From Chromohalobacter beijerinckii (GTDB taxonomy: Bacteria; Pseudomonadota; Gammaproteobacteria; Pseudomonadales; Halomonadaceae): a stretch of 64,000 bases of DNA. The stretch is taken from assembly GCF_023061185.1 (NCBI RefSeq), contig NZ_JAKGAK010000016.1, positions 1 through 64,000 on the forward strand, read 5' to 3'. Below the pieces are notes generated by a model. The model was given only the letters and a program-made list of their open reading frames with translations, searched no databases and was not told the origin of the DNA. Below, piece by piece: positions 4,685 through 60,517 of this stretch. The position numbers and the translations under genes were made by a program. Each line of letters opens with the position of its first letter. Position 1 is the first letter of the stretch.

Positions 4685-4688
4685 CACC

Positions 4689-5463: not shown

Positions 5464-5489
5464 TGTTTTACCTGTCCATCGTTAATCTT

Positions 5490-6580: not shown

Positions 6581-7582
6581 ATGAAAATCAAACACTCCTT
6601 GCGTGGCCTACCGGTAATTACTGCACTGTTATCGACATTGGCTATTTCCGTTGCTAGCACATCGGCATTGGCAGCCGAGTACAACGCCAAGCTTTCGCTT
6701 GACGTGCCAGAGGGTAACACTAAGTACGTTGCGGCTAAAAAGTTTGCCGATATGGTGCGCGAGCGAACCGATGATAATGTCGATATTAAGCTGTTTCCCA
6801 ACAGTGTCCTCGGCGGTGAGAGCGAATCGGCAGAAGGCATTAGGCTTGGCTCCGTACAGATGGGGATCATTACTAGCTCGGTGCTGACTTCTTGGGTACC
6901 CGAAGTTCAGGTTCTTGATCTACCTTATTTGATCAACAGTGACGAACAGGCGGTAGCGATTAACGAGCCTCTCACTGATGAATTGGCGCCCAAGTTTGAG
7001 GGTGAAGGTTTCCACCTCATGGGGTTTTCGGTCAATGGCATCCGTCAGTTGATGAGCAGCACTCCAATTCATTCGGTTGATGACGTTAAGGGGAAAAAGA
7101 TGCGCGTCATCCAGAGTCCACTGCACGTCGCTATGTGGAAAGCCGCCGGTGCTAACCCTACGCCAATCCCAGCTCCCGAGATATATAACTCAATGCAGAC
7201 AGGGGTGATCGACTTTTTTGATAATACAGCGACCAATTACCTTACCAATCGCTTCTATGAAGTTGCGCCTTACTACGTAAAAACTGGGCACGTTTATGCG
7301 ATGGGGACTTGGGTAGTGTCACAAAGCTGGTGGCAGCGTTTGCCGGAGGAATACCAGCAAGAGATCACCAAGGCTGCCAACGAAGTTCAGGAGCAACTGC
7401 CTGCTATGCGTCAGCAAGATGATAAGGCGGCTCTAGCCAAGACTGTTGAGGATGGCGCCACCATCATTGAGATCGATGATAAAGGTCCGTGGAAAGAAGC
7501 CATGCAGCCAGTCAGGGAGGAGTACACCAAGAAAATTCCTAACGGCAAGGCACTCGTCTCGCTGATTGAGAACGCCGACTGA
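6581..7582 (+). CDS. TRAP transporter substrate-binding protein, DctP family
   Basis: The 333-residue periplasmic protein starts with a signal peptide (MKIKHSLRGL, hydrophobic core, STSALAAEYN). It then shows the DctP/SBP_7 layout: EGNTKYVAAKKFADMVRERT near the start, NSVLGGESES, and the hinge segment KGKKMRVIQSP with the family arginine for carboxylate binding. It delivers an organic or sugar acid to the membrane subunits encoded next. The gene follows the SDR gene by about 100 bases and precedes the fused QM subunit by 82 bases, forming a sugar-acid uptake and oxidation cluster. Confidence 0.9.
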   Translation: MKIKHSLRGLPVITALLSTLAISVASTSALAAEYNAKLSLDVPEGNTKYVAAKKFADMVRERTDDNVDIKLFPNSVLGGESESAEGIRLGSVQMGIITSSVLTSWVPEVQVLDLPYLINSDEQAVAINEPLTDELAPKFEGEGFHLMGFSVNGIRQLMSSTPIHSVDDVKGKKMRVIQSPLHVAMWKAAGANPTPIPAPEIYNSMQTGVIDFFDNTATNYLTNRFYEVAPYYVKTGHVYAMGTWVVSQSWWQRLPEEYQQEITKAANEVQEQLPAMRQQDDKAALAKTVEDGATIIEIDDKGPWKEAMQPVREEYTKKIPNGKALVSLIENAD

Positions 7583-7664
7583 ACCTTGGAAGCGATCCCG
7601 CCACCATGGCGGGGTCGCACGTTCCATCCCACCTCAATGGCGTTGCCATTCTGGAGCGTATCGA

Positions 7665-9530
7665 ATGTCAGCCTATCGCCTTTCTCACACGCTGCCTTTG
7701 CTGAGTCTTGGTCGCGCCGCTGCTGGGCTGGAGTCGGTGGTCCGCCTGCTGATCTTCGTCAATTTGCTGGCGATGACGATAGACGTATTCGCTGGCGTAG
7801 TCTCGCGCTATGTATTCAATGACGCCTTTTCGTGGACCGCTGAGTTCGCGGTTTGGTCGTTCACCTGGTTGATCTTCCTCGGGGCGGCGTTAGGGATCCG
7901 ACAGCAGCGCCACGTCGCTGCTGATTTTTTGACCAAGAATTTATCTGGTTGGTCGTCAGGCCTGCTGGGCTTCATCCAGAGCCTGATCTTGGCTCTGACG
8001 GTAATGATGATGATGTTCAGTGGCTACCAGCTTGCCGAGATGGTCGGCGGAGTCAGTGCCAGCTTGGAGTGGCCTAAGGTATATAAGTACGCGGTCATTC
8101 CGGTATTTGGCCTGATTGGCTTGGTATTCCTGCTTGCTCGAGATGCTGACAACACGCGTACCTTGGTCCGCAATTTCTTGGCACTTGGTATTGCTGGCCT
8201 GCTTTATCTTGGTCTCGATCATGGCTTGCTTGCTCCGTTACAGGGTGTTTCGCCTAGTCTGATCATGCTGGTCGCATTCTTCGTGGCTCTGGTAGTTGGT
8301 GTGCCGGTCTCTTTTTCTTTGATGTTCGGGGTCTTCCTGGCTAACTCGGCGTCGTTCATCCTTCCAGCGCCAGCGATCGTTCAGAATATGGTCACCGGTT
8401 CGACCAAGTTTATTCTATTGGCAATCCCGTTTTTCCTCTCGACCGGCTATCTACTCAATCTAGGAGGCCTGTCCACACGCTTGATCGACTTTGCCTCTAG
8501 CCTGGTTGGCCACTTACGTGGTGGCTTGGCCCATGTCAACGTACTCAATAGCCTGATGGTGGGCGGCATTTCCGGGTCGTCGAGCGCCGACGCTGCTAGT
8601 AGCACCAAGATCTTGGTCCCCGAGATGGTTCAGCGTGGCTATTCACCGGCATTCTCCTGTGCGGTCACGGCTTCATCGGCGATTCTGCCCAATGTCGTGC
8701 CGCCAGCGATTGCCATGCTGGTTTACGCTTCAGTGGCTAATGTCTCCATCGCTCGGCTGTTTATGGCCGGTATCCTGCCAGCGATCCTCTGTGCGGGCGT
8801 CCTGATGGGGGTCTCCTACTTGATCTCGGTGCGTCGTCAGTACCAAACGGCCACTGCTCGAGCCCCTTGGAACGACGTTTGGCGTAGCTTCCTGCGTGCC
8901 TTGCCGGTGTTGGTCATTACCGTTGGTGTGCTGGGGGGAATTCGGTTTGGCATTATCACCGCTACCGAGGCGGGAGTCATAGCGTTGCTCTGGACGTTCG
9001 TACTCGGCAAATTTGTATTCCGTGAATATGGCTGGAAGAAATTCTACCGTGCCTTCGCCGAGTGCGGGACCGATGCCGCCTTGGTGGGTTTTTTGATCGC
9101 CGCCTCGGTGCCCTTCGCCTGGGTCCTGATCGCCGAGCAAGTACCCCAAGAGATTGTCGCTTGGGCGAGTACCATCGTTGATGGCCAACTTGGGCTGTTC
9201 ATCATCCTGCTGGTGGTCTTGGCCGCTGCGGGGATGTTTCTCGATCTGACCCCGGCGATGCTGATTATTGCGCCACTGTTCTTGCCAATGATGACTAACG
9301 CTGGGGTCGACCCTGTTCAGCTCGGTATCATTATGATCATTGTCCTGCAGCTCGGCGGCGTCTCCCCGCCAGTAGGTCTGTTGGTGTTTATCTCATCCCA
9401 AATTGCCAAGGTTTCACCTTCGGCAGTGTTCAGGGCGGTGGTGCCATTTATTGCTGGGGCTATGGTGGTAGTGGTTCTGCTATGTTTATTCCCGTTCCTG
9501 ACGGTAGGCCTGTGGGAGCTTTTGGGATGA
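7665..9530 (+). CDS. Fused TRAP transporter membrane subunits DctQ-DctM
   Basis: This 621-residue inner-membrane protein joins the small DctQ subunit (four helices, roughly residues 20-170, with WTAEFAVWSFTWLIFLGAALGIRQQRHV) and the large DctM permease (roughly 195-620, with GGISGSSSADAASSTKILVPEM and LGGVSPPVGLLVFISSQIA). Fused QM proteins are well known in sodium-driven TRAP systems. The start at 7665 has a CTGGAG site; the frame is open further upstream into dctP but that part is not DctQ-like. It is the last gene of the catabolic block. Confidence 0.92.
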   Translation: MSAYRLSHTLPLLSLGRAAAGLESVVRLLIFVNLLAMTIDVFAGVVSRYVFNDAFSWTAEFAVWSFTWLIFLGAALGIRQQRHVAADFLTKNLSGWSSGLLGFIQSLILALTVMMMMFSGYQLAEMVGGVSASLEWPKVYKYAVIPVFGLIGLVFLLARDADNTRTLVRNFLALGIAGLLYLGLDHGLLAPLQGVSPSLIMLVAFFVALVVGVPVSFSLMFGVFLANSASFILPAPAIVQNMVTGSTKFILLAIPFFLSTGYLLNLGGLSTRLIDFASSLVGHLRGGLAHVNVLNSLMVGGISGSSSADAASSTKILVPEMVQRGYSPAFSCAVTASSAILPNVVPPAIAMLVYASVANVSIARLFMAGILPAILCAGVLMGVSYLISVRRQYQTATARAPWNDVWRSFLRALPVLVITVGVLGGIRFGIITATEAGVIALLWTFVLGKFVFREYGWKKFYRAFAECGTDAALVGFLIAASVPFAWVLIAEQVPQEIVAWASTIVDGQLGLFIILLVVLAAAGMFLDLTPAMLIIAPLFLPMMTNAGVDPVQLGIIMIIVLQLGGVSPPVGLLVFISSQIAKVSPSAVFRAVVPFIAGAMVVVVLLCLFPFLTVGLWELLG

Positions 9531-46499: not shown

Positions 46500-48563
46500 A
46501 TGACGACACAATCTAATAATGAGGCGCCGTCACGCGATCGCCTCAATGGGCCGGTGTTCTACAGCTCGGTGGTTGGCATCGTCGCCTTCTCGCTGTGGGC
46601 GATGATCGCTACCGACCAGGCCAACTCGGTCATCAATGCCATCCTCGGCTGGATCTCCAATACCTTCGGCTGGTACTACTTCTTGACGGTGGTGATCTAC
46701 CTGGTCTTCGTGATTTATCTGGGGTTGTCACGCTATGGCAATATCCGCCTAGGGCCTGAACACTCACGACCCGACTTCAATATCTTCTCGTGGTCGGCGA
46801 TGCTGTTCTCCGCGGGGATCGGCATCGGCGTGATTTTCTTCGCGCTGGCCGAGCCGCTGACGCAGTTCTATAACGCGCCAAACGCGCCCGATGATCAAGT
46901 CGCCGCGGCACGCCACGCGATGGAGCTGACCTTCCTGCACTGGGGGCTTTCCGGCTGGGGTATCTACACCCTGGTAGGCATGTCACTAGCCTTCTTCAGC
47001 TACCGGCACAACCTGCCGCTGACCATCCGTAGCGCGCTCTATCCGATCTTCGGCGACCGGATCTACGGCATGATCGGCCACGTAGTCGATACCGCTGCCG
47101 TGATGGGGACGGTATTCGGCATTGCCGCTAGCCTTGGGATCGGGGTCATCCAGCTCAACTTCGGGCTGGACTATATGTTCGGCATCCCAAAAGGCACCTG
47201 GACCCAGGTGGTGCTGGTACTGGGCATCGTGCTGTTCGCGACCATCTCCGCGGTGACCGGGGTGGAGCGTGGCATCCGCCGCCTTTCCGAGTTCAACATC
47301 CTGCTCGCGGTATTGCTGCTGCTGTTCGTGCTGTTCGCCGGCAAGACGATCTTCCTGCTCAATGCGCTGGTGATGAACATCGGCGACTACCTGACCAACT
47401 TCGTCAGCCTGTCGTTCAATACCTATGCCTTCGACCGGCCGACCGGCTGGCTGAACGGCTGGACGCTGTTCTTCTGGGCTTGGTGGATTGCCTGGGGTCC
47501 GTTCGTCGGGCTGTTCCTGGCGCGTATCTCGCGTGGCCGTACCATCCGCACCTTCGTGCTCGGTACCATGACGCTGCCGATCATCTTCATGTTCCTGTGG
47601 ATGTCGTTGCTGGGTAACAGTGCCATCGACATGGCGATGAACGGCGCCAGCGAGTTCGGCGAGCAAGTGATGAACAATCCGCCTGCGGGGATCTACTTGT
47701 TCCTCGAATCGTATCCGCTGCCAATCCTGACTACTGCGGCGGTGAGTATTCTGGCGATCGTGTTCTTTATTACCTCCGGGGACTCCGGGGCGCTGGTACT
47801 CTCGAACTTCACCTCGAAGCTCAAGAACGTCAACAGCGACGCGCCGATTTGGATGCGCATTCTGTGGTCGGCGGTGATCGGTGTGCTGACCCTGTCGCTG
47901 ATACTCGCTGGGGGACTAACGACGCTGCAGAGTGCGGTGGTGATCACCGGCTTGCCGTTCTCGGTCGTGCTGTTCTTCATGATGGCAGGACTGCTCAAAG
48001 CACTGAAGCTCGAGGCCTTCAAGGAAGACAGCCGGCGTCTGAGCCTGGCCGGCCAACTTTCCGGGCGTACCGGTGGCGGTGGAGAACGCGATACCCGCAA
48101 CTGGCAGCAGCGTCTCCGGCGCGCCATGAGCTTTCCTGGCAAGAAGCAGGCGCGGCGCTTCATGGACGAAACCTGTAAGCCGGCCATGGAAGCCGTGCGC
48201 GATTCGTTGCAGGAGCAAGGCGTATTCGTCGAAATTAATGAAGGCGTGCAGAATGGCGACGACTACATGTCGCTCAACGTCGACTTCGAAGACGAGCAGA
48301 ACTTCACCTACCAGATCTGGAGTCAGGGTTTCTCGACGCCTGGGTTCGCGATGCATGCGCCGCATGCCGATTCGCGCTACTACCGGCTGGAGGTCTATCT
48401 GCTCGAGGGCAGCCAGGGTTACGACCTGATGGGCTACACCCGCGATCAGGTGATCGGCGACATCCTCGACCAGTACGAACTGCACATGCAGTTCCTGCAC
48501 CTCAACCGGATCGAGCCGGGCAACATCAACATGCCCGACAGCCCGGAACAGCCGCCTTCATAA
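46500..48563 (+). CDS. betT: BCCT-family choline/betaine transporter, BetT-like
   Basis: The 687-residue sodium- or proton-driven transporter has twelve helices, the glycine-rich motif SAGIGIGVIFFALAEPL and the BCCT signature WAWWIAWGPFVGLFLARISRGRT. A long C-terminal cytosolic domain (about residues 510-687) like that of E. coli BetT (677 residues) is present; in BetT this tail takes part in osmotic activation. It imports choline or betaine for osmoprotection. A strong terminator pair follows. No bet oxidation genes adjoin it. Confidence 0.9.
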   Translation: MTTQSNNEAPSRDRLNGPVFYSSVVGIVAFSLWAMIATDQANSVINAILGWISNTFGWYYFLTVVIYLVFVIYLGLSRYGNIRLGPEHSRPDFNIFSWSAMLFSAGIGIGVIFFALAEPLTQFYNAPNAPDDQVAAARHAMELTFLHWGLSGWGIYTLVGMSLAFFSYRHNLPLTIRSALYPIFGDRIYGMIGHVVDTAAVMGTVFGIAASLGIGVIQLNFGLDYMFGIPKGTWTQVVLVLGIVLFATISAVTGVERGIRRLSEFNILLAVLLLLFVLFAGKTIFLLNALVMNIGDYLTNFVSLSFNTYAFDRPTGWLNGWTLFFWAWWIAWGPFVGLFLARISRGRTIRTFVLGTMTLPIIFMFLWMSLLGNSAIDMAMNGASEFGEQVMNNPPAGIYLFLESYPLPILTTAAVSILAIVFFITSGDSGALVLSNFTSKLKNVNSDAPIWMRILWSAVIGVLTLSLILAGGLTTLQSAVVITGLPFSVVLFFMMAGLLKALKLEAFKEDSRRLSLAGQLSGRTGGGGERDTRNWQQRLRRAMSFPGKKQARRFMDETCKPAMEAVRDSLQEQGVFVEINEGVQNGDDYMSLNVDFEDEQNFTYQIWSQGFSTPGFAMHAPHADSRYYRLEVYLLEGSQGYDLMGYTRDQVIGDILDQYELHMQFLHLNRIEPGNINMPDSPEQPPS

Positions 48564-48722: not shown

Positions 48723-48752
48723 TTCGTATACCGAGTCTATACACTATACGAA
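48723..48752. promoter_or_regulatory. Probable HigA operator
   Basis: TTCGTATA (48723-48730) and TATACGAA (48745-48752) form a perfect dyad with 8-bp arms and a 14-base centre. The right arm runs into the higB start codon, the usual autoregulatory position for HigA. Confidence 0.65.
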
Positions 48753-49030
48753 TGATCAAGAGCTTCCGACACAAAGGTCTGCGCAAGTTCTTTGAAACCG
48801 GCTCCACTGCTGGCATTCAGGCAAAGCACGCAACCAAGCTGCAAATACAGCTAACTGCGCTGGATAGCGCGACAGGCCCTGATGACATGAATGCGCCGGG
48901 TTGGAGGCTGCACCCCTTGTCCCGAAGCCTGAAAGGGCACTGGGCTATCATCGTCAACGGGAACTGGCGCCTCACCTTCACTTTCGAGGGTGAGGACGCC
49001 ATTTTGGTTGATTATCAGGATTACCACTAG
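48752..49030 (+). CDS. higB: HigB-type toxin
   Basis: The 92-residue protein is a RelE-superfamily mRNA endonuclease of the HigB type: [20 protein letters not shown] at the start, [28 protein letters not shown] in the core and VDYQDYH at the end. HigB toxins cut mRNA on the ribosome. It is toxin-first, as usual for hig loci, with the antitoxin 11 bases downstream. Confidence 0.93.
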
Positions 49031-49041
49031 GAGGTCGTCGC

Positions 49042-49323
49042 ATGAAGCGTATGCATAATCCTGCGCACCCTGGCGCCGTCTTGCGCGAGTACATTGGCGA
49101 TCTCTCTATTACCGAGGCCGCCAAGCGACTGGGTGTAACGCGCGCTACGCTATCTCGGATTCTCAATGGCAGCGCCGGCATCTCGGCGGATATGGCGTTA
49201 CGCCTCGAGCAAGCCCTGGGTACCAGCGCAGAGATGTGGCTGGAGATGCAGCTCAAGTATGAACTGTGGCAAGCATCGCAGCTGCCTCGCGCCCAGGTGA
49301 CACCACTGCACGCGACGGGGTGA
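49042..49323 (+). CDS. higA: HigA-type antitoxin
   Basis: The 93-residue XRE-type helix-turn-helix protein begins with the HigA signature [20 protein letters not shown] and continues [30 protein letters not shown]. It binds HigB and represses the operon through the upstream dyad. An AGGAGG site precedes the ATG. Confidence 0.93.
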
Positions 49324-49371
49324 TCGGGAGGTGAAGGACTGCTTGCTCACGCTTATAGGAAGTCTCCCGAA

Positions 49372-49563
49372 TCAATAAAGCCACTGGCGTAGGGCTTCGC
49401 GATTGCCGAGTTCGATTTGCTGGGCACGGGGATCGCCTTCCACGTGGCGATGATTGATGCCGTATTCGCGCAACACGTATTGGGCGAGCGCGCAGCGGCA
49501 GGTGATCGCCAGCATGTGCTCTTCCATGGCGTAGTCCTGCGCGATGGCAATGCCTCCAATGAG
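49372..49563 (-). pseudogene. Duplicated CRISPR-adjacent module, copy 1 (gene fragment of unknown family)
   Basis: On the minus strand a frame enters from the CRISPR repeat and reads AQDYAMEEHMLAIT, then ALAQYVLREYGINHRHVEGD and ends NREALRQWLY at a stop at 49372. The same sequence recurs at 50657-50862 with few changes. Copy 1 lacks 59 bases that copy 2 has, between two GCGCGATG words. I recognise no family; it is not a Cas protein known to me. It looks like the 3' end of a gene truncated into the array. Confidence 0.5.
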
Positions 49564-49653
49564 CCGTTCCCCGCAGGCGCAGGGATGAACCGTCTCGAAA
49601 CATGATCCGGTAGGGTTTGCGGATCCGTTCCCCGCAGGCGCGGGGGTGAACCG
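49564..49653 (+). CRISPR. Two-repeat CRISPR remnant
   Basis: Two 29-base repeats (49564-49592 and 49625-49653) flank one 32-base spacer. They begin CCGTTCCCCGCAGGCGC like the main array but end in TGAACCG instead of TAAACCG, with one further change each (AGGGATG and GGGGGTG). Spacing is exactly that of type I-E. There is no leader. Confidence 0.85.
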
Positions 49654-49692
49654 TAAGCGCAAAATAGTCGGTGGGATTCAGGGTAGGGTGCG

Positions 49693-50262
49693 TTAGGCGT
49701 CGTCTTCTGGTGGCTGGCTACCTTTGCGTTGCTTTTCCAGAATGCGAGGAGCAACGAATATCGCGACCATGCCCACGAGATCCAGCGTTCCGATGACGCC
49801 CGCAGCAACAGAACTGAAGGGTGCGATCACGGTGGCTGCCACGAGGCCGACGATGGCAACGGTCAACCCGTATCGTTGTCCACGTTCATCTTTCTTGATA
49901 GCACCCTCTAAACCCTTGCTACGCATGTCGTGCGTATGGTGCTGCTCGTCGACGGCCATATTTACGATGAGGCGACGTGTTTCCTCATCATAGGCATTCA
50001 GTTGCTCTGGAGGCGGGAGAGGGCCTTGATAGCTCACTTGCCGCATCATGGCGACAGATTGGTTTTGTGGCTCGGGTGTGGGGGCACTGACGATCAGGTC
50101 GCCTAACCGTACCTGCTCTTCCTCGGAAAGCTGTCCATGATGCAACTGCTCAATAAGGCCGACGAGCTCCTTTTGAGTTTCCTCGTCGACCTGTTGCCCG
50201 TCTTGAAGGGAGAGGTCGCGTTGAGAAGGCTGCTCACCGTTTGGTGGCGTGGTTGAAGGCAT
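49693..50262 (-). CDS. DUF2335 membrane protein
   Basis: The 189-residue protein has a polar N-terminal half (residues 1-125, with ERGQRYGL at the junction) and two C-terminal helices (LTVAIVGLVAATVIAPFS and GVIGTLDLVGMVAIFVAP), the DUF2335 layout. Function is not established; such two-helix proteins can act as membrane effectors, but that is inference. It is translated from a frame overlapping the end of the 65-residue gene by 29 bases and is flanked by the two duplicated CRISPR modules. Confidence 0.75.
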   Translation of the reverse strand: MPSTTPPNGEQPSQRDLSLQDGQQVDEETQKELVGLIEQLHHGQLSEEEQVRLGDLIVSAPTPEPQNQSVAMMRQVSYQGPLPPPEQLNAYDEETRRLIVNMAVDEQHHTHDMRSKGLEGAIKKDERGQRYGLTVAIVGLVAATVIAPFSSVAAGVIGTLDLVGMVAIFVAPRILEKQRKGSQPPEDDA

Positions 50263-50431
50263 ATTGGCTCAAGGCTGAACGGAGGTGACTGCCAACAGTT
50301 GTCCAATGTTGGGCAATACGTTCTTGATCACTGCCCTTGGGCATGTATTGGGCGTAGTTTTCGACTGGCCAAACATCCATCACGGAGCCTGCTGCACGCA
50401 GGGTACGGCTGCTCGTTACGCGACGTTTCAT
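50234..50431 (-). CDS. Small protein (65 residues) paired with the DUF2335 gene
   Basis: An AGGAG site precedes the ATG at 50431. The product begins MKRRVTSSRTLRAAGSVMDV and ends SHLRSALSQYAFNHATKR; it is basic and soluble, with a WPVENYAQYMPKG centre. Its end overlaps the DUF2335 start by 29 bases, so the genes are one operon. I recognise no family. In a defence cassette it could be an immunity or sensor partner, but nothing in the sequence proves that. Confidence 0.65.
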   Translation of the reverse strand: MKRRVTSSRTLRAAGSVMDVWPVENYAQYMPKGSDQERIAQHWTTVGSHLRSALSQYAFNHATKR

Positions 50432-50625
50432 GACCTTACTCCTGAATAATGTTTTCCAACGCTATACGTTCAGCACGTTATCTTGCCGACGTTGCAGCGC
50501 TAGGAAGATAGAATCCTATGTCAAAGATAGCGCAAAATAAACCGTACAGTGCGAGACCATTTTCGCGTGACTTGGCCATATGCGTGTTATCACTGTGCGA
50601 ATCTCAAAGCGCCAGGCTTCATCGT

Positions 50626-50654
50626 CCAAGCCCCGCAAACGCAGGTGTCGCTTG
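50626..50654 (+). repeat. Strongly degenerate CRISPR repeat
   Basis: The segment CCAAGCCCCGCAAACGCAGG matches the repeat at 16 of its first 23 positions, in the same orientation as the arrays, and ends just before module copy 2. It may be a fossil unit. Confidence 0.35.
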
Positions 50655-50656
50655 CC

Positions 50657-50862
50657 TCAATAAAGCCACTGGCGGAGGGCTTCGCGATTGCCGAGTTCGA
50701 TTTGCTGGGCACGCGGATCGCCTTCCACGTGGCGATGGTTGATGCCGTATTCGCGCAACACGTATTGGGCGAGCGCACGTCGGCAGGTGATCGCCAGCAT
50801 GTGTTCCTCCATGGCGTAATCCTGCGCGATGAGCTCGCGTTCCGCATCGCTGAGGCGTCGAT
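50657..50862 (-). pseudogene. Duplicated CRISPR-adjacent module, copy 2
   Basis: The minus-strand frame begins inside a partial CRISPR repeat (RFIPDRRLSDAERELIAQDY), continues MEEHMLAITCRRALAQYVL and REYGINHRHVEGDPRAQQIE, and stops at 50657 after RQWLY. It is the longer copy; it lacks an N-terminus of its own, since upstream coding is CRISPR repeat and spacer. Identity with copy 1 covers coding and flanking bases alike, so this is a DNA duplication, not conserved domains. Confidence 0.5.
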
Positions 50863-51168
50863 CGGGGATGAACCGTGAGGGCGCGCGATGGCAATGCCTC
50901 CAATGAGCCGTTCCCCGCAGACGCGGGGATAAACCGCGCAACATCCTGCTACGCACGTTCGAGCCGCACCGTTCCCCGCAGACGCGGGGATGAACCGATT
51001 TTCGGCACCGTCGACGTGCAGAAGAGCCGCCGTTCCCCGCAGACGCGGGATGAACCGCACGCGTAGCAGTAGACTCCCCGTCCGCGAGGCCGTTCCCCGC
51101 AGGCGCGGGGATGAACCATCGATCTCGATAGTGCTGGACGAAGCGGCCCGCTGTTCCCCGCATACGCG
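50863..51168 (+). CRISPR. Decayed CRISPR array upstream of cas3
   Basis: A repeat 3' end (50863-50875) is followed by repeats at 50908, 50969, 51030, 51090 and a broken terminal unit at 51151, with five spacers of 32 bases. Three repeats carry CAGACGCG instead of CAGGCGCG, all but one end in TGAACC, the third lacks one G (28 bases), and the fourth ends in A. The last keeps only its first 18 bases. No leader is present, so it is probably not acquiring spacers. Confidence 0.9.
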
Positions 51169-51273
51169 AAGCCCCATTCTGCTTTATGGTCCTTCAGGTA
51201 AAAGGGAGTGACGTGACCAGCGCTAATTCAATCAACGTGCTGCGTCGCCGATAGTCATTGAAAGGAGATGAGT

Positions 51274-53964
51274 ATGCCGCCAGAAAATGACTCGATTGCT
51301 TTTTATCACCGCTACGCGGGCAAGGCGATGCCGGGCCAGCCGGGAGACAGCTGCCACCTGTTGGCTTGGCACAGCCTTGATGTCGCGGCCGTCGGCTGGC
51401 ATTTATTGGCCCCCGGGCGCCCGCTGACGCAACAGCTGGCCGCGCAGCTGGGCATCGAGCCCGAAGCGCTACGGTGTTTGTTAGTGTTTCTATTGGGGCT
51501 TCACGATCTCGGCAAGTTTTCCCGGGCCTTTCAGGAGGTGCTGAAGCTCTCGCTGGACGGCATGGCCTCGCCGCAAGGAAAACCTTACTGCCAGCGCCAC
51601 GACCGCCTGGGCGTCCTGCTCTGGGACGCCTGCTGGAGCACCTGGCGCCGAGACGGCGTATTGCACTGGCCAGAGGACGCAGAGATTTCCGCCAGAAAGC
51701 TGCTGCCCCCCATGAATAGCCTGATGGCACCGTTCTTCGGCCATCACGGCCAACCTGTAGCGACCGGGCAACTGACGCTGGCGGACTTCTTCGTCGATGA
51801 TGGCGAACTCGACGATACCGCCGCCGCGCGGGACTTCGTGGCCGACTGGGCCGCGCTGATCGCGCCTCACTGGCCGCTCGATAGGCTGGTGGACAAGCAG
51901 TGGCTGGCGCGTTTCAAGACGCTGAGCTGGACGGTGGCCGGGTGGGCGACGCTCAGCGACTGGTTGGGCTCCCACCGCGACTATTTTCCCTACTGCCAAA
52001 GGGCCATGCCGCTGGCTGACTACTGGCTGCGGGCGCTCACCCAGGCTGAAGCGGTGCTCGATGTCACCGGCTTCGGCCGACCGCCCGAGCCGATAGCTTA
52101 CGCCGGGCTTACCCACTGGTTTGCGGGCACTGTCACTCCGACGCCGCTGCAGCAGAAGGCGGAAAACCTGCCGCTCCAGGCCGGGCCGCAGCTGTTCATC
52201 CTCGAAGACGTGACCGGCGCGGGCAAGACCGAAGCCGCCTGTATTCTGGCCCAGCGGCTGCTGGCCGACGGCCACGGAGAGGGGCTCTATTTAGCCCTGC
52301 CCACCATGGCGACCTCCAATGCCATGTACACCCGGCTGGGTGATTTGCACCACCGCTTTTACAGCAGCGCCTCACGGCCCTCGCTAGTGCTCGCCCATGG
52401 CGCCCGAGAACTCAACGAAGCGTTCGAGCGCGCCGTGATGGCCGCTCAGCCGGAAAACGACAACTACACTGCCTGGGAAGGAAGTGCCTCGACCCAGTGC
52501 AACCGCTGGCTGGCTGATTCGAACAAGAAAGCGCTGCTGGCCGATGTGGGCGTTGGCACCATCGACCAGGCTCTGATGGGCGCGCTGCCGTTTCGCCACC
52601 AGTCGCTGCGCCTGCTGGGGCTGGCACGCAAGGTGCTGATCATCGACGAAGTCCACGCCTTCGATCACTATATGCAGACCCTGCTGCACCAGTTGCTGGC
52701 CCATCACGCCCGCCAGGGCGGCAGCGCCATTCTGTTGACGGCAACGCTCCCCCACGCCATGCGCCAGGCGCTCACGGCAGCTTGGTGCCATGGCTTGGAG
52801 GCTGAGGCTAGCCCGCTCGTGACCCACGATTATCCCCTGCTGACCCACTGCGGTGAGGGTAATGTCAACGAGTACCCCGTCGAAACCCGCCTGGCGGTCG
52901 AGCGCAGCGTCGCCATCGCATGGCTTGAAAGCGAAAACGAGGCTATCGAGCGTGTGCTGGCAGCGGTGGCGGCTGGTGAGTGTATCGTCTGGGTGCGCAA
53001 TACCGTCGACGACGCCATCCGCGCCTATCAAGCGCTGGGCGAGCGCCACTCGGACCCCGAGCGCTGCCTGCTCTTCCACGCCCGTTTTGCCATGGTGGAT
53101 CGCCAGCGGATCGAATCCGAGGTCATCCGCCGCTTTGGCAAGGATTCCACGCCGTCACTCAGATGCGGTCAAGTGCTTGTCACTACTCAGGTTTTTCAGG
53201 AAAGCCTCGACTGCGATGCTGACCAAATGGTCAGTGATATCGCGCCCATCGACCTCTTGATTCAGCGCGCCGGGCGTCTGCAACGCCACCAGCGTGGTGA
53301 ACGCCCCGAACCCGTTCTGCAGGTGCTCGCGCCCGCGTGGAGTGATACCCCCGGTGCCGACTGGCTGAGCCAGGCGCACCGAGGCACCCAGGCGGTCTAC
53401 CAGGACACCTCGCTGGTCTGGCTGACCCAGCGCGTGCTGCGTGAGCAGGGGGCCATTACCATGCCGGGTGAGGCGCGAACTCTGATCGAAAGCGTCTACG
53501 CCTTTCCGGTGGACGACATTCCCGAGGCGCTGGATCAGGCACGCTTCGAACGCACGGGGATGGACAGGCTCGCGGTCTCGATGGCCACCCACAATGCACT
53601 AGATCTTGAGGCCGGATACCAGCTCGATAGCGATTTCGATCCGTGGCAGGAGGAGCGCGAGTTTGGCACTCGGCTCAGCGACGAACGCAGTGTCGAGGTT
53701 GTGCTGCTCAAACGCCAGGGCGAGTCGCTAGTGCTATGGGCTGAAGACCACCGGCACGCCGACCGCTTGAGCCGATGTCGCCTAAGGGAGAGCCAGGTCA
53801 AGAAACTCGCCGCGCTGCCAGGGCACTATGCGGAGCAGTGGGAAGCGATCCAGCAACGCCACCGGGGCTTGCGTTTCGTCCATCCCTGGCTGCCGGAGGA
53901 GGATGCCAAATGTGGCTATGACGAACAGTGGGGCGTGAGTTTTGGAAATGAAAATCCCCGCTGA
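51274..53964 (+). CDS. cas3: CRISPR-associated helicase/nuclease Cas3 (type I-E)
   Basis: The 896-residue effector nuclease has an N-terminal HD domain (GLHDLGKFSRAFQ around residues 75-88; GHHGQPV around 155) that cuts DNA, then a superfamily 2 helicase with Walker A VTGAGKTEAA (about 313), DEVH box IIDEVHAFDHYM (about 455) and ILLTATLPHAM, and a C-terminal domain. Cascade recruits it to degrade target DNA. The ATG at 51274 has AGGAG six bases upstream; the ATG at 51268 is too close to it. The last codons lie in a CRISPR-repeat-like inverted sequence. Confidence 0.95.
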   Translation: MPPENDSIAFYHRYAGKAMPGQPGDSCHLLAWHSLDVAAVGWHLLAPGRPLTQQLAAQLGIEPEALRCLLVFLLGLHDLGKFSRAFQEVLKLSLDGMASPQGKPYCQRHDRLGVLLWDACWSTWRRDGVLHWPEDAEISARKLLPPMNSLMAPFFGHHGQPVATGQLTLADFFVDDGELDDTAAARDFVADWAALIAPHWPLDRLVDKQWLARFKTLSWTVAGWATLSDWLGSHRDYFPYCQRAMPLADYWLRALTQAEAVLDVTGFGRPPEPIAYAGLTHWFAGTVTPTPLQQKAENLPLQAGPQLFILEDVTGAGKTEAACILAQRLLADGHGEGLYLALPTMATSNAMYTRLGDLHHRFYSSASRPSLVLAHGARELNEAFERAVMAAQPENDNYTAWEGSASTQCNRWLADSNKKALLADVGVGTIDQALMGALPFRHQSLRLLGLARKVLIIDEVHAFDHYMQTLLHQLLAHHARQGGSAILLTATLPHAMRQALTAAWCHGLEAEASPLVTHDYPLLTHCGEGNVNEYPVETRLAVERSVAIAWLESENEAIERVLAAVAAGECIVWVRNTVDDAIRAYQALGERHSDPERCLLFHARFAMVDRQRIESEVIRRFGKDSTPSLRCGQVLVTTQVFQESLDCDADQMVSDIAPIDLLIQRAGRLQRHQRGERPEPVLQVLAPAWSDTPGADWLSQAHRGTQAVYQDTSLVWLTQRVLREQGAITMPGEARTLIESVYAFPVDDIPEALDQARFERTGMDRLAVSMATHNALDLEAGYQLDSDFDPWQEEREFGTRLSDERSVEVVLLKRQGESLVLWAEDHRHADRLSRCRLRESQVKKLAALPGHYAEQWEAIQQRHRGLRFVHPWLPEEDAKCGYDEQWGVSFGNENPR

Positions 53965-54010
53965 CGCGGGGAACGGCTAGCACTGTGTACCTATGACGGT
54001 TCATCCCCTG
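53948..54010 (-). repeat. Inverted CRISPR-repeat relic at the cas3 3' end
   Basis: On the minus strand a repeat tail (AGGGGATGAACCG, ending at 53997) is followed by 20 bases and then a repeat start CCGTTCCCCGCGTCAGCGGG (53976 downwards). The palindrome differs from E. coli repeats by one base and from the main array by more. It overlaps the last codons and stop of cas3 and may double as its terminator hairpin. Confidence 0.6.
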
Positions 54011-54137
54011 TCTAAGAGGAACGCTTCATTATACAAACCAGATGACTAATGCGCATTTATTTTCATGTGTCCTTATGACTTGTTGATTCCGTTTTGGTGC
54101 TTTAAGCTGATCTCCATATTCAGTTGAAGGGGCAGCT

Positions 54138-54272
54138 ATGCGCGACTGGTTTAAAGATCTATTTCGTGAAGCGGGGCATTGGGATTGGACAGAGATCGCT
54201 TTGAACGGGCTTGGACGTCTGTTTTTTCAAGCGGTTATTTCGATAGTTCTGAGAAATAAGAGGGACAAATGA
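54138..54272 (+). CDS. Small ORF (44 residues) between cas3 and cas8e
   Basis: A GAAGGGG site precedes an ATG at 54138. The 44-residue product begins MRDWFKDLFREAGHWDWTEI, has a hydrophobic stretch (LGRLFFQAVISIVL) and a basic end (RNKRDK). Its TGA stop overlaps the cas8e ATG (ATGA), so it is the first cistron of the Cascade operon and translationally coupled to cas8e. I know no such subunit in type I-E operons. It might be a regulator, a leader peptide or a small membrane-bound partner. Confidence 0.7.
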   Translation: MRDWFKDLFREAGHWDWTEIALNGLGRLFFQAVISIVLRNKRDK

Positions 54273-55969
54273 ATCTACTCACAGCCTCCTGGCTGCCCTT
54301 TCGCTGTCGAGGTGGTCGAATCGAGTATCGCCCACCCTCGGCGCTTGCCGACCATGATGTTATCGACCTGGCGCTGCCCCGCGCTGACTTTCAGGGAGCG
54401 GCCTGGCAATTCCTGATCGCGCTGTTGCAGACGGCAATGACGCCGGAAGATACCGATGCCTGGCTGGATCGTTACCAGACGCCGCCAAGCGTGACCGAAC
54501 TTGATGAGTTGTTGGCCCCCTTTGCCTCCGCCTTCGAGCTGGATGGCGACGGCCCGCGCTTCATGCAGGATCTGGATCCGCTTGACGACGTCAAGGAAGC
54601 GCCGGTTGCCGGTCTGCTGATCGACTCGCCCGGCGCCAACGGCATCAAGAACAATACCGATTTCTTCGTCAAGCGCGGTCGGGTGGAAACCGTCTGCCCG
54701 AAGTGCGCGGCGCTGGCACTTTTTACCATGCAGATCAACGCCCCCGCCGGTGGGGCCGGGATTCGCGTTGGTCTGCGCGGTGGCGGGCCACTGACCACGC
54801 TGATTCTGCCGGAAGACGAGAGAAAATTGCTGTGGGCGCGGCTCTGGCCCAACGTGATGCCCGCCGATGCGGTGGGCCAGCCGGGGCAGGCCTGTCGCGC
54901 CCCCAGGGTCGATGATAGCGATCTGTTCTTCTGGATGGCCGAGACGCGCATCAGCGACAAGAAGGGCAAAGAGGTGTTGCCCGAACAGGTTCACCCGCTG
55001 CACGCCTTCTGGTCGATGCCCAGGCGCTACCGGCTTTTGTTTGACGACACGCCGGGAACTTGCGACCTCTGCGGCCGCGAGGCCGCGCGCCCGGTGCGCC
55101 GTTTGCGCGCCAAGAAGCAGGGTGCCAACTACGACGGCCCCTGGCGGCACCCGCTGACGCCCTATCGCAAGCTCAACCCCAAGAAAAACGACGAATTGCC
55201 GCTCTCCAGCAAGGGCCAGCCCGGCGGGCTGGGCTACCGCCACTGGCCGGGACTGGTGCTGGAAGATGAAGCCGTAAGCGGTGCGCTGCCCGCTCGCGTG
55301 GTGACGCACCATCTGCACAAGTACCGTATGGTAGCGGCCGCGCGAGACGATGGAGAAGCGTTCGAGGCGCTTTTCAAGCGCACTCGGCTCTGGGTGTTCG
55401 GCTACGACATGGACAACATGAAGCCGCGCGGTTGGTACAGCGTGGAAATGCCGCTGGTGGGCGTGCCCGACGCTTATCAAGAGACGCTGCGCGGCTGGGC
55501 CAAACGCTTCGTCGATCTCGCATCGGAGTTTACCTGGACCCTGCGCAACCAGCTCAAGCGCGCCTGGTTCAAGCGCCCGGAAGACGCCAAGGGCGATATG
55601 AGCCAGATCGACGCCCAATTTTTCGAGGCGACCCAACTGGCGTTTTTCTCCGCGCTACGCGAGATGGGCGAGGTGCTGCGCAAGGAAATGGAGACGCCGG
55701 AGCTGTCGCCCGAAACCCACCGCCAGTGGTATTTGGCGCTCAAACGCGAGGCGCTGGCGTTGTTCGACGACCAGGCGGTCAGCGGCCCCCTGGAGGGCAT
55801 GAAGATGCAGCAGCTCGAGCGTATCACCAGCGCGCGGCGCTACTTGCAAGCCTATCTGAACGGCCGCGGCAAGAAAGTCGGCAAAACGGTGCAGACCTTT
55901 GCCCAGGTGGGCGGTTTCGAGTTGAGCACCCCGGCACCTGAAAACAATCCGGAGGGGACTACCGTATGA
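54269..55969 (+). CDS. casA: Cascade large subunit Cas8e (CasA/Cse1)
   Basis: The 566-residue subunit begins MNLLTASWLPFRCRGGRIEY, typical of Cse1, and has the PAM-recognition segment SPGANGIKNNTDFFVKRG and a zinc-type motif CPKC with a later CDLCG. A four-helix bundle fills the C-terminus. It recognises the PAM and recruits Cas3. It overlaps the 44-residue gene and the cas11 gene by four bases each. Confidence 0.95.
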   Translation: MNLLTASWLPFRCRGGRIEYRPPSALADHDVIDLALPRADFQGAAWQFLIALLQTAMTPEDTDAWLDRYQTPPSVTELDELLAPFASAFELDGDGPRFMQDLDPLDDVKEAPVAGLLIDSPGANGIKNNTDFFVKRGRVETVCPKCAALALFTMQINAPAGGAGIRVGLRGGGPLTTLILPEDERKLLWARLWPNVMPADAVGQPGQACRAPRVDDSDLFFWMAETRISDKKGKEVLPEQVHPLHAFWSMPRRYRLLFDDTPGTCDLCGREAARPVRRLRAKKQGANYDGPWRHPLTPYRKLNPKKNDELPLSSKGQPGGLGYRHWPGLVLEDEAVSGALPARVVTHHLHKYRMVAAARDDGEAFEALFKRTRLWVFGYDMDNMKPRGWYSVEMPLVGVPDAYQETLRGWAKRFVDLASEFTWTLRNQLKRAWFKRPEDAKGDMSQIDAQFFEATQLAFFSALREMGEVLRKEMETPELSPETHRQWYLALKREALALFDDQAVSGPLEGMKMQQLERITSARRYLQAYLNGRGKKVGKTVQTFAQVGGFELSTPAPENNPEGTTV

Positions 55970-56646
55970 GTGAAGTAGAACAACGGTCAGAACAGCCAGA
56001 GTCTGGTGAGAAGACGGCTGCGGCAGAGGGCTATCTGTATGCTCTCGACAAGCAGGAGGCGGTCGAGCTGCGCCAGTGGTGGCGGCGGCTGGTCATGGAT
56101 CAGCCGGAACTCAAGCGATACACAAAGCAGTGGCCTTACCCTCGCGGTGTTCGTGCCGCGCTGCGCCGTTGCGACTCTATCTCGTCGGTCATGCTGACGG
56201 AAGCGTTCCGCCACCTCTGGCAGGCACTCGAGGAACGGGCCTGGCAGGAGGCACCGCCCAAGCCCCCCCGCGATCAGCGCCTCACGACATGGGCGGTCGT
56301 TGCTGCCGTCGCGAGCGAGCTGCGCGCCGAGACATTCGATGCCCCGCTGGGCAAACGGCTGGGCGAGAAGCGCCCCAATACCGCCGATACCCCGCGCATG
56401 AGCGATTTACGCTTTCAACAACTGCTCGACTGCCATACACCAGAAGAGCTGATCCGGCGCTTTCGCCGGGCGCTCAAGCTTGCTGAGAACGCCGGCGTCA
56501 GCGTTGTCCGCCTGGCCGATATGGTTGCGCTATGGGAGCGCGAGCAGCGCGGCCAATACCGCACCAAGGCGCCCCAGCGCTTTGCCTTCGTCATGAGCGA
56601 CGCCTACTTCCAGGCGCGAGCGTTGAAACCGGCAGCGGGCGACTGA
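55966..56646 (+). CDS. casB: Cascade small subunit Cas11e (CasB/Cse2)
   Basis: The 226-residue helical protein has the Cse2 pattern ALRRCDSISSVMLTEAFRHL and RFQQLLDCHTPEELIRRFRRAL. Two copies stabilise the R-loop in Cascade. It is longer than E. coli CasB (160 residues) because of an acidic N-terminal extension. The ATG overlaps the cas8e stop. Confidence 0.93.
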   Translation: MSEVEQRSEQPESGEKTAAAEGYLYALDKQEAVELRQWWRRLVMDQPELKRYTKQWPYPRGVRAALRRCDSISSVMLTEAFRHLWQALEERAWQEAPPKPPRDQRLTTWAVVAAVASELRAETFDAPLGKRLGEKRPNTADTPRMSDLRFQQLLDCHTPEELIRRFRRALKLAENAGVSVVRLADMVALWEREQRGQYRTKAPQRFAFVMSDAYFQARALKPAAGD

Positions 56647-56713
56647 ACGTCTGTCGTCGCTTTTCAACAACCACTTTTCGACATTCGTCACATTTGTATT
56701 CAGGGGACACACC

Positions 56714-57808
56714 ATGAGTCATTTTATCCAGCTTCATCTGCTGACCTCCTACCCGCCTTCCAACCTCAACCGCGACGACCTGGGTCGCCCCAAGACGGCC
56801 TTCATGGGCGGTGCTCGTCGGCTGCGCGTCTCCTCACAGAGCCTCAAGCGCAACTGGCGCACCTCCGACCTGTTCGAAGCGGCAGTCGATGGCCACAAGG
56901 GCACGCGCACCAAGCGTCTGGGAGGAGAGGTTTACAAGCGGATGACTAACTCGGGCGCCAACGAGAAAGTGGCGAGTGGCAGCGCTGAGAAGATCGCCGG
57001 GGTCTTCGGCAAGCTGCGCAAGGTCGACAAGGGCGAAAAGCACGAGTACGAAATCGAACAGCTGGTTCACGTCGGGCCGGAAGAAATTGCCGCGCTTGAA
57101 GAGCTCGCCGATGTGCTAGGCGCCGAGAACCGCGAGCCGACCGATGACGAGCTCAAGGGGCTGCTCGCTCGGCGGCCCACGGCTGTCGATGTGGCGCTGT
57201 TCGGACGCATGCTAGCGGCCGCGCCGAGCTACAATGTTGAAGCGGCCTGTCAGGTCGCCCATGCCATTACCGTGCACGCCGCCGAGGTCGAGGACGATTA
57301 CTTTACCGCCGTCGATGACCTCAATACTGGTGACGACGACCGTGGTGCGGCGCATATCGGCGAAGCCGGGTTCGCCGCCGGGCTGTTCTACCTCTACCTC
57401 TGCATCGACCGGGATCTGCTGGTCGAAAACCTGCAGGGCAACACTGAGCTGGCCGACCGCGCCATCGACGCGCTGGTGGAGTCCGCCGTCAAGATCTCGC
57501 CCAAGGGCAAGCAGAACAGTTACGGTTCCCGCGCCCAGGCAAGCTATGTGCTGGCAGAGAAAGGCGACCAGCAGCCGCGTTCATTGGCCGCGTCTTTCCT
57601 GCAGCCGGTCAACGGCGAGGCCCAGGCGGTCAGCGCCATCGACAAACTGGAAAGGCAGGCCCAGGCCTTCGATGACGCTTACGGCGCAGGGGCGGATCGG
57701 CGCTTTATCCTCTCGGCCACGCCGGATTACGACACGCCTTTCCTGCAGGGGGACATTCAGCGCGGCAACTTGCAAGCGCTACTGGCCTTTCTCAAAAGTG
57801 ATAATTAA
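56714..57808 (+). CDS. casC: Cascade backbone subunit Cas7e (CasC/Cse4)
   Basis: The 364-residue RRM-fold protein starts FIQLHLLTSYPPSNLNRDDLGRPK, the Cas7e signature, with RLRVSSQSLKRNWR following and a C-terminal FLQPVNGEAQAVSAIDKLE. Six copies coat the crRNA. A 67-base gap separates it from cas11; a purine-rich ribosome site lies at the start. Confidence 0.95.
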   Translation: MSHFIQLHLLTSYPPSNLNRDDLGRPKTAFMGGARRLRVSSQSLKRNWRTSDLFEAAVDGHKGTRTKRLGGEVYKRMTNSGANEKVASGSAEKIAGVFGKLRKVDKGEKHEYEIEQLVHVGPEEIAALEELADVLGAENREPTDDELKGLLARRPTAVDVALFGRMLAAAPSYNVEAACQVAHAITVHAAEVEDDYFTAVDDLNTGDDDRGAAHIGEAGFAAGLFYLYLCIDRDLLVENLQGNTELADRAIDALVESAVKISPKGKQNSYGSRAQASYVLAEKGDQQPRSLAASFLQPVNGEAQAVSAIDKLERQAQAFDDAYGAGADRRFILSATPDYDTPFLQGDIQRGNLQALLAFLKSDN

Positions 57809-57819
57809 GCGGAGGCGAT

Positions 57820-58599
57820 ATGCCACACCACCTGGTTTTTCGCCTCTATGCGCCCATGGCGAGCTGGGGCGAAGCCGCGGTCGGCGAGACGCGGCCGACG
57901 GCGACCTATCCCGGGCGCAGCGCCATTCTCGGGCTTATCGGGGCAGCACTCGGCATCCGCCGCGATGACGATGATGGCCAGCACCAACTGCGCAAGGGCC
58001 TGCAGGTAGCGGTAAAACAGCGCTCGCCGGGGCTTTTGATGCGCGACTATCACACAGTCCAGGTACCGTCGTCGCAATCGAAAGTGACCCACCGTACCCG
58101 CCGCGAGGAGCTGTCGGTGCCCAAGGAGGCGCTCAACACCATTCTCTCGTCGAGAGATTATCGCTGCGACGGTCTGTGGAGTGTAGCGGTACGTCTGGCC
58201 CCAGACGCTGCCTGGACCCTAGAAGAACTGAAAGCGGCGCTGGAAAAGCCCCGTTTTCCACTCTATCTCGGCCGCAAGGCGTGCCCCCTGGCCGCGCCAC
58301 TGGTGCCGACCGTGGTCAAAGCCAGCCACTGGCGCCAGGCACTGGATCACTGTTTTGAAAGCGCGCTGGATCCGGAACGCGCCTGGCTGGCGCTGGTGGG
58401 GAATGAGGAGAAGGATAAGCGCCTGCTGCGCCTACCCGACGAGGTGCTTTACGCCTGGGAAGGGTCAGCCGATGCGCTCGATGGCGTTGCGGCCAGTGAG
58501 TCCAGCGAAGTCTGGGATGAACCGCTGCATCGGCGCCGCTGGCAGTTCGGTCCCCGCCTGGAAAACCGGCGCACTGAAACGCTGAAAGGAGAGCGCTAA
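57820..58599 (+). CDS. casD: Cascade subunit Cas5e (CasD)
   Basis: The 259-residue protein has LVFRLYAPMASWGEAAVGET and RPTATYPGRSAILGLIGAAL, the Cas5e signature, and HTVQVPSSQSKVTHRTRREE followed by YLGRKACPLAAP. It holds the 5' handle of the crRNA and contacts Cas7. It lies 11 bases after cas7e, and its stop overlaps the cas6e ATG by one base. Confidence 0.94.
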   Translation: MPHHLVFRLYAPMASWGEAAVGETRPTATYPGRSAILGLIGAALGIRRDDDDGQHQLRKGLQVAVKQRSPGLLMRDYHTVQVPSSQSKVTHRTRREELSVPKEALNTILSSRDYRCDGLWSVAVRLAPDAAWTLEELKAALEKPRFPLYLGRKACPLAAPLVPTVVKASHWRQALDHCFESALDPERAWLALVGNEEKDKRLLRLPDEVLYAWEGSADALDGVAASESSEVWDEPLHRRRWQFGPRLENRRTETLKGER

Positions 58600-59291
58600 T
58601 GTATCTTTCAAGTGTCAGGCTGGACCTCAACCGCCTCACCCGCGCCGAGCTGTTCGATGTGCTGGAGGGCGGCGCCTATACCGCCCATCAGTTGCTCTGG
58701 CGGCTGTTTCCCGGTGTGCCCGAAGGCGAGCGGCCCTTTATTTTCCGCCAGGAGATGGAAGAAAATTCCAACGGCAAGGGCGCCGGATTACCCCGATTCT
58801 ACGTCGGTTCGGCGTGCGCTCCAGAGCCGATAGAGGGCTTCGAGGTACAGTGCAAGCCCTTTGCCCCTCAGCTTGCCAAAGGCGAACGGCTGGCCTTTCG
58901 CCTGCGTGCTAACCCCTCCATTGCCAAACCGATGGGCCAGGGCCGCCGTTCTAAGCGCGCCGACGTGCTGATGGATGCGCGTTATCCCTTCCCAAAAGGA
59001 GAGCGGACGAGCCAGGCATGTACCGAGGCGATGGATGCTGCCGCACGCCAGTGGCTTGCTGATCGGGCGGACGCCTTTGGCTTTACGCTGCCCGTCGCGC
59101 CGGAGGTAGGCGCTTACCGTCAGTATGCGCTGAGCAAAAAAGGGGGCGGGGAGCCCATCCGCTACTCCAGCGTGGATTACGAAGGTCTGCTGGAGGTGGC
59201 CGACCCGGTGGCGCTCAATGAGGCGCTACGACACGGCATTGGCCGTGCCAAAGCTTTTGGCTGCGGCCTGATGATGTTGCGTCGGCCATAG
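58599..59291 (+). CDS. casE: crRNA endonuclease Cas6e (CasE/Cse3)
   Basis: The 230-residue protein cuts pre-crRNA at the repeat hairpin and stays in Cascade. It begins MYLSSVRLDLNRL and has the catalytic-type histidine in YTAHQLLWRLFPG (residue 30), RPFIFRQEM, and the C-terminal glycine-rich HGIGRAKAFGCGLMMLRRP. The start overlaps cas5e. Confidence 0.94.
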   Translation: MYLSSVRLDLNRLTRAELFDVLEGGAYTAHQLLWRLFPGVPEGERPFIFRQEMEENSNGKGAGLPRFYVGSACAPEPIEGFEVQCKPFAPQLAKGERLAFRLRANPSIAKPMGQGRRSKRADVLMDARYPFPKGERTSQACTEAMDAAARQWLADRADAFGFTLPVAPEVGAYRQYALSKKGGGEPIRYSSVDYEGLLEVADPVALNEALRHGIGRAKAFGCGLMMLRRP

Positions 59292-59300
59292 GAGAGCGTC

Positions 59301-60517
<1,217 letters not shown>

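Follow-up and report, generated by a model that had tools for sequence, protein, structure and literature searches.

A p65-DUF2335 gene pair between type I-E CRISPR repeats at a site of changing immune modules in Chromohalobacter

Anatomy of the locus

We analyzed a 64,000-nucleotide stretch of the Chromohalobacter beijerinckii genome (contig NZ_JAKGAK010000016.1, positions 1 to 64,000), referred to here as the window, or G000 when compared with other genomes. It carries a BCCT transporter gene, a HigBA pair, a two-gene cassette between two copies of a short module, and a type I-E CRISPR-cas locus (Table 1). The cas3, cas8e, cas7, cas6 and cas1 genes were identified by model, and cse2, cas5 and cas2 by order and ORF. 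I-E-like repeats on the plus strand start at 49564, 49625, 50908, 50969, 51030 (8 mismatches) and 51090. As a preliminary description had stated, two module copies in the same direction lead into I-E repeats (from 49564 and from 50908). They are 175-bp direct copies (49372-49546 and 50657-50831) that are 95% identical and 1285 bp apart, and nothing lies between them besides repeats and two minus-strand genes whose frames overlap by 29 bp, encoding a DUF2335 protein and the 65-aa p65. The same description had mentioned HigBA as a neighbor of the membrane protein; the HigBA pair lies outside the repeat-bounded cassette. HigBA (48752-49323, between the BCCT gene and the first module copy) is common to G004 and G006, and a HigB remnant is present in G005 and G007. 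A HigBA-like pair was also observed within 1.2 kb of a DUF2335 gene in G021 (L051), without CRISPR.

Table 1. Features of the window around the p65-DUF2335 cassette
Feature	Position	Strand	Basis or remark
BCCT transporter gene (hot-spot anchor on the left)	46500..48563	+	PF02028
HigB toxin	48752-49030	+	PF05015 / TIGR02607 matches for HigBA pair; outside cassette
HigA antitoxin	49042-49323	+	PF05015 / TIGR02607 matches for HigBA pair; outside cassette
WYL gene fragment, 3' end (copy 1)	49372..49546	-	95% identity to copy 2
Two I-E repeats (49564-49592, 49625-49653) and one spacer, cassette left border	49564..49653	+	1 mismatch each to 29-nt consensus
p65-DUF2335 cassette between two repeats	49654..50625		Kept between repeats in 6 genomes; flanks vary
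DUF2335 membrane protein, 189 aa	49693..50262	-	PF10097, phrog_3996, AlphaFold2 helical hairpin
p65, small partner, 65 aa	50234..50431	-	phrog_26284
Presumed p65 promoter, conserved non-coding upstream stretch	50432..50625		79-100% identity to window in four genomes compared
Decayed I-E repeat, cassette right border	50626..50654	+	11 mismatches of 29; 1/300 shuffles as good
WYL gene 3' end, copy 2, fused to array at shared 9-mer CGGGGATGA (50863-50871)	50657..50871	-	Nearly full-length WYL gene in relatives
Short I-E array upstream of cas3, degenerate terminal repeat	50863..51176	+	Similar terminal repeat beside cas3 in G054 and G009
Type I-E cas3, cas8e, cse2, cas7, cas5, cas6, cas1, cas2	51268..60517	+	Model matches and gene order

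The duplicated stretch was found to be the part of a WYL-domain regulator gene that encodes the C-terminus, joined to the type I-E array. Tandem duplication of an old array had been one suggestion for the copies; the duplicates are real, but the repeated unit is a regulator-array fusion and not simply an old array. Copy 2 encodes the last 67-71 residues on the minus strand, and same-genus homologues are open over 284-307 aa. The full gene in G004 encodes a WYL-domain protein (PF13280, 56.1 bits), and the homologue in G006 was matched by PADLOC's CRISPR-associated WYL models. When the window was compared with G006, the WYL sequence was common up to GATCGGGGATGA, after which G006 continues with the gene and the window with the 3' end of the I-E repeat. 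The 9-mer CGGGGATGA is present in both the WYL gene and the repeat, and the gene in the window is cut there. The gene-array fusion of copy 2 and its first spacer recur in copy 1, indicating that both copies derive from one regulator-array fusion. Copy 1 is shorter than copy 2 by a stretch deleted between two 8-bp direct repeats, GCGCGATG, and a copy identical to it is present in G004 and G006. Of the 9 same-genus relatives, 7 (G002-G008) have a nearly full-length WYL gene; the gene is broken in the window, and no WYL match was found in G001 and G009. The WYL identity of the copies, the deletion in copy 1 and the decayed repeat at 50626-50654 are points beyond the preliminary description.

The DUF2335 protein matched PF10097 at 28.4 bits, which is above the curated cut-off of 25 but weak. 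It contains two hydrophobic helices after a GPLPPP...L..Y motif (alignments A1 and A3), from which membrane insertion is predicted. The AlphaFold2 model (mean pLDDT 80.8, pTM 0.46) shows a small helical part at the N-terminus and two helices joined by a turn, the first long (93-146) and the second spanning 151-181. The p65 model (mean pLDDT 77.1, pTM 0.42) is mainly one helix (35-64), and the protein has a conserved W and G. No Pfam match was found for p65 up to E 1, and PADLOC, which has no model for either protein, left both p65 and DUF2335 unmatched up to E 0.1. The DUF2335 fold had no match at E <= 0.001 in the PDB or in a viral library, where the best match was a phage DUF2335 protein (E 0.02, probability 0.99, TM 0.28).

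We examined selection on the pair in 15 pairwise comparisons. DUF2335 dN/dS was 0.06-0.14 in the 12 comparisons made between lineages; in the other three, the window and G006 were identical, and G004 against either gave 0.23 on 7 changes. DUF2335 is under purifying selection. Where defined, the p65 values lay between 0 and 0.86, with very few changes behind them, and were little informative. A promoter scan of 49300-51300 found no sigma-70 consensus site.

The cassette and its site in relatives

The BCCT gene adjoins the site in all nine same-genus relatives and in G027, and it is split into two pieces in G004 and G006. Beside it, the ten genomes of the genus carry different tenants: type I-E in three (the window, G001 and G009), type I-F in five (G003, G004, G005, G007 and G008, each with a nearly full-length WYL gene), type I-C in one and an RmrTA-type system in one. 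The I-C locus of G006 has an array and a nearly full-length WYL gene (L041, 1-11225). In G002, genes for RmrT, RmrA and an AriA/PtuA-like ATPase lie beside WYL where relatives have cas genes (L045, 4105-8858), and no cas match was found within the fetched stretch. In G027, which belongs to another genus, WYL, type I-F and the cassette adjoin the same BCCT gene. Two side observations were made at this site. HipB-like and HipA-like genes lie between BCCT and WYL in G005 (L046, ~6300-7860; HipA_C match PF07804, part translated by eye), and similar sequence was seen by eye between cas3 and cas8e in G001 and G009. The cas3-side I-E array of G001 (L103, ~4460-5670) contains a duplicated spacer run, noted by eye, as expected from repeat recombination.

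The cassette region was aligned in seven genomes (G000, G003, G004, G006, G008, G027 and G054). The cassette spans ~970 bp with an I-E repeat on each side. In six genomes from three genera (G000, G003, G004, G006, G027 and G054), the conserved stretch begins right after a repeat, which is decayed in G027, and ends at another ~1 kb on, and the flanks beyond the border repeats differ among the six. The seventh copy, in G008, is decayed and has lost most of DUF2335; the frames are intact in the other six of the seven copies. The cassette occurs in I-E, I-F and I-C loci. Within the genus it is present in G000, G003, G004 and G006 and decayed in G008, and DUF2335 had no match in the remaining five of the ten genomes (G001, G002, G005, G007 and G009). 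The expectation that the two genes come and go as a unit tied to the repeats was borne out by these six genomes with both repeats and by G001 and G009, which have the I-E locus without the cassette. No exact empty site for the cassette was found among the relatives. As a candidate cassette-free site, G002 showed a possible relic repeat with 12 mismatches, which we do not claim because 23/300 shuffles reached its score.

The left border repeat differed at 0-5 positions from the closest of four 29-nt consensus forms. For the right repeat, none of 300 shuffles was as good in G054 (4 mismatches), G003 (8) and G006 (10). With 11 mismatches each, the right repeat was equaled by 1/300 shuffles in the window, 3/300 in G027 and 10/300 in G004, and is weak in these three taken alone; in G008 it was not significant alone (13 mismatches, 72/300 shuffles). 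The decayed right repeat together with its 4-mismatch counterpart in G054 indicates that repeats lie on both sides of the gene pair. We also compared 376 distinct spacers from the window and its relatives with the cassette, and the best match (16/17 nt, E 0.001 per query) was within chance.

In G003 and G027, an I-E leader as in G001 and one repeat directly precede the cassette, although the cas genes are of type I-F. In G054, the cassette comes after the last repeat of a large I-E array, on the side toward cas3, and is followed by a repeat, a spacer, a terminal repeat and a truncated cas3 start. This start (72 aa) is 84.7% identical to the window's cas3, compared with 61% for the longer cas3 of G054. 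The layout points to a probable joint transfer of array end, cassette and cas3 start. The array itself (L049, 5960-13400) lies between a cas2 remnant and the truncated cas3 start, and the sequence after this start resembles, by eye, a stretch upstream of cas3 in G019. For OpgG, used as a control gene, five same-genus relatives gave matches of 94-97%, G008 one of 86%, and G019 none. The cassette protein is 90-96% identical across genera, compared with best OpgG matches of 46% in G027 and 40% in G054, which are probably not the direct counterparts there; with that caution, the cassette looks transferred.

Distribution of the pair and its phage relatives

The preliminary description had proposed a candidate accessory immune system and had named repeated co-occurrence of the pair with type I-E loci as what would support a linked system. 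The distribution of the family speaks against a CRISPR accessory system as such. Among 275 genomes of the taxonomic family, DUF2335 was found in 16 and p65 in 19. Around the gene in the nine DUF2335 genomes outside the close group, neither an array nor a match to the window's cas proteins was found; near DUF2335 in G039, G021 and G053, loose patterns gave a few isolated repeat-like matches. A cas8e match was present in 4 of the 23 genomes checked (G001, G009, G019 and G054), and 5 of the 7 cassette genomes had no I-E cas8e match. Scans of genome contigs and viral sequences yielded 61 and 5 DUF2335 loci, respectively, and a p65-like ORF lies upstream of DUF2335 in 42/66 (E <= 0.01, profile from alignment A2). 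Within the sequence fetched around each locus, matches to the window's cas proteins occurred at 4/61 genome loci (4/66 with the viral ones), all members of the close group, a count in which other cas types may be missed because the queries were the window's I-E proteins. One of these four loci (L108) has a regular I-E array. At another locus (L131, 9905-10055), we observed four copies of a 20-mer with ~50-bp spacing near the DUF2335 gene.

In a sample of 369 genomes of the class, PF10097 was present in 14, Cse1 in 31, and both in 4, one being the window; the three others have the two on different contigs or 126 kb apart, leaving no adjacent pair in this sample save the window. At CRISPR loci, we found only members of the group with at least 90% identity, and no recurrent CRISPR linkage was detected across the DUF2335 family. 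On its distribution across the family, the class sample and the 61 genome loci, we reject DUF2335 as a general partner of CRISPR; p65-DUF2335 is a widespread operon that also occurs in phages.

On the phage side, DUF2335 matched phrog_3996 at 85 bits (category 'moron, auxiliary metabolic gene and host takeover') and p65 matched phrog_26284 at 33.9 bits. Five viral contigs carry DUF2335 relatives that are 31-53% identical, each with a p65-like ORF. DUF2335 relatives (27-39% identity, best 38.5%) also occur in seven phage records, a p65 relative in one other phage record, and a DUF2335 relative in each of six plasmid records. A close viral source of the cassette was not found, the best identities being 53% among the viral contigs and 38.5% among the phage records. 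In a Klebsiella phage, DUF2335 has an antirepressor gene on one side and the tape-measure gene on the other; in an Escherichia phage, it is near an anti-repressor and a tail fibre gene; in another phage, it adjoins an esterase gene, and holin genes lie further away. Two of the three phages inspected thus have the gene near anti-repressor, tail or fibre genes. The gene is present in phage genomes, and its context suggests that it may be an extra unit there, or moron. It resembles PF10097/phrog_3996 proteins in motif, two-helix membrane hairpin and phage occurrence, and differs by its weak Pfam match and its CRISPR-locus setting.

The neighbor scan of the wider family covered 104 of the 215 candidates. 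Among the 25 of 97 Pfam and 25 of 99 PHROG families listed, we found metabolic and chaperone genes and several phage genes (terminases, tail, endolysin). Of defense-type neighbors of these 104 candidates, DrmA, DrmB, BrxL, PDC-S07 and PDC-S27 were represented by one protein each and HicB by two. The neighbors of the wider family are mixed and not defense-rich.

In the passages retrieved by a literature search for DUF2335 by name, there was no account of this family's function. A published table entry reading 'DUF2335 (phospholipase)' we take to be a slip for DUF2235. That entry, in the table of PMC6267618 included in the retrieved part, was not used. In the retrieved part of PMC8809351, a DUF2335 gene is merely listed among Dickeya genes tested for maceration. 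The passages retrieved on genes inside arrays, on Chromohalobacter CRISPR and on I-E plus I-F at one locus held no recognized match to the present case.

Origin and likely role of the cassette

Defense hot spots, at which immune modules are exchanged, are a general notion. The site studied here is alike in being a single site with the same anchor gene and I-E, I-F, I-C and RmrTA-type tenants; it differs by a repeat-bounded cassette and a border WYL gene that are common across CRISPR types. The defense hot spot and the phage-type gene pair are its ordinary parts, and the repeat-bounded cassette common across CRISPR types and the regulator-array fusion are its unusual parts. Solitary repeat units and virus mini-arrays, as described in the available parts of PMC10651486 and PMC6858448, likewise place single CRISPR repeats beside phage-type genes; here, the repeats are chromosomal, lie at a cas-locus border and flank protein genes on both sides.

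The best explanation, which we hold with about even confidence, is that the locus is a mosaic from immune-module exchange at the BCCT site, in which a phage-type membrane module, probably for exclusion or abortive defense, sits in an I-E array. The p65-DUF2335 pair would have come between two repeats near the cas3 end of an I-E array, and the cassette with its border repeats would have persisted or moved while the neighboring module switched among I-E, I-F and I-C. The WYL gene beside the cassette may later have fused to an incoming I-E array at the 9-nt repeat match. The two copies of the fused tail may have come to flank the cassette via recombination across shared tails and cassette, or by duplication; the order of events and a route by repeat-repeat exchange are what the arrangement suggests. 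A small partner with a two-helix membrane protein, phage carriage and strong constraint would fit an exclusion or abortive-defense module. Both proteins most likely act at the inner membrane in superinfection exclusion or abortive defense, with p65 controlling or assisting DUF2335, and the pair probably has its own promoter, independent of CRISPR.

A possible though rather doubtful explanation is tandem duplication in situ, in which WYL tail, array start and cassette were doubled and one cassette was lost, giving the order tail-cassette-tail. The preliminary description had offered tandem duplication or cassette insertion; duplication is possible for the tails, which stand in direct order, are 95% identical and share their first spacer, but what was repeated is the regulator-array fusion and not a simple array. 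Against duplication, the left fused tail in G004 and G006 stands opposite a right-hand WYL gene that is nearly full length, indicating separate histories of the two sides there, and searches of the window's own genome found one DUF2335 gene and no further WYL tail.

That the phage gene pair is a neutral passenger, trapped in a dying array and retained by linkage only, is improbable. The decay in G008, with DUF2335 truncated, and the missing cassette in 5 of the 10 genomes of the genus would agree with it. However, the intact frames in all other copies and the low dN/dS of DUF2335 across lineages argue against it.

We consider it very unlikely that the pair is a CRISPR-controlled toxin, in which a repeat-derived crRNA-like RNA would direct Cascade to the p65 promoter, and loss or inhibition of Cascade would free a membrane toxin. 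In the parts of PMC12737573 and PMC9458426 available, CrePA and CreTA are alike in that a phage-type or toxin gene lies in a CRISPR locus beside degenerate repeats, as the p65-DUF2335 pair does beside degenerate I-E repeats; here, there is no convincing repeat-spacer-repeat guide against the promoter, the pair is kept in genomes without I-E cas8e, and the border repeats are ~1 kb apart. We scored 22 repeat-derived guides from six genomes in a PAM-anchored scan against 200 shuffles each. No crRNA-like guide against the p65 promoter was convincing, the lowest shuffle fraction of 0.045 being at chance level for 22 tests, and the scan thus lent CreTA/CrePA-like control no convincing support. Two matches would favor such control: an 11-nt match, AGCGCAAAATA, shared by the p65 upstream region and the 32 nt that follow the left repeat, lying two positions away from an AAG PAM (window, G004 and G006), and one array spacer of the window with 7/7 seed positions at almost the same place upstream of p65, with a TAG PAM. 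However, seed positions 1 and 2 are mismatched in the AGCGCAAAATA match, and the match is not retained in G003, G027 and G054. The intact cassette in I-F and I-C genomes without a cas8e match also speaks indirectly against toxin release on Cascade loss.

The same kind of scan does detect sites for a CreR-like element in this locus. A mini-CRISPR between cas3 and cas8e (53951-54025, minus strand), recognized by its repeats, consists of a degenerate repeat, a 20-nt spacer and a second repeat overlapping the cas3 end, with TATAAT just upstream. The spacer's target (54059-54078, minus strand) lies upstream of cas8e beside an AAG PAM. It matches at 6/7 seed positions in the window (9/500 shuffles within the intergenic stretch, with a second window site tying in score), 6/7 in G001 (1/300) and 7/7 in G054 (0/300). 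The layout is similar in G001 and G054 (the first repeat of G054 was read from its 3' end by eye) and agrees with the description of CreR in the available part of a review (PMC12737573 and PMC9458426 being the CreTA/CrePA sources). From its sequence, this mini-CRISPR looks like a CreR-type autoregulator of the cas genes.

Capture of the cassette by Cas1-Cas2 as an oversized spacer is the least probable reading: the cassette starts exactly at the repeat 3' end in five genomes (the window, G003, G004, G006 and G054) and ends at a repeat, but it measures ~970 bp versus 32, occupies in G054 the array end next to cas3 and not the leader, and has no known source with a flanking PAM.

Returning to module exchange at the BCCT site, these results present p65-DUF2335 as a two-gene operon of many bacterial phyla and phages, and one genus with CRISPR types I-C, I-E and I-F at a single site, where a repeat-bounded gene pair and a border regulator gene are common to different CRISPR types. 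Strains with and without the pair exist, allowing direct comparison. It is conceivable, if unlikely, that I-E repeats serve as borders of a movable cassette, with repeat-repeat recombination shuttling phage-type genes into and out of CRISPR loci and across types; if so, an array could store whole defense genes as well as spacers.
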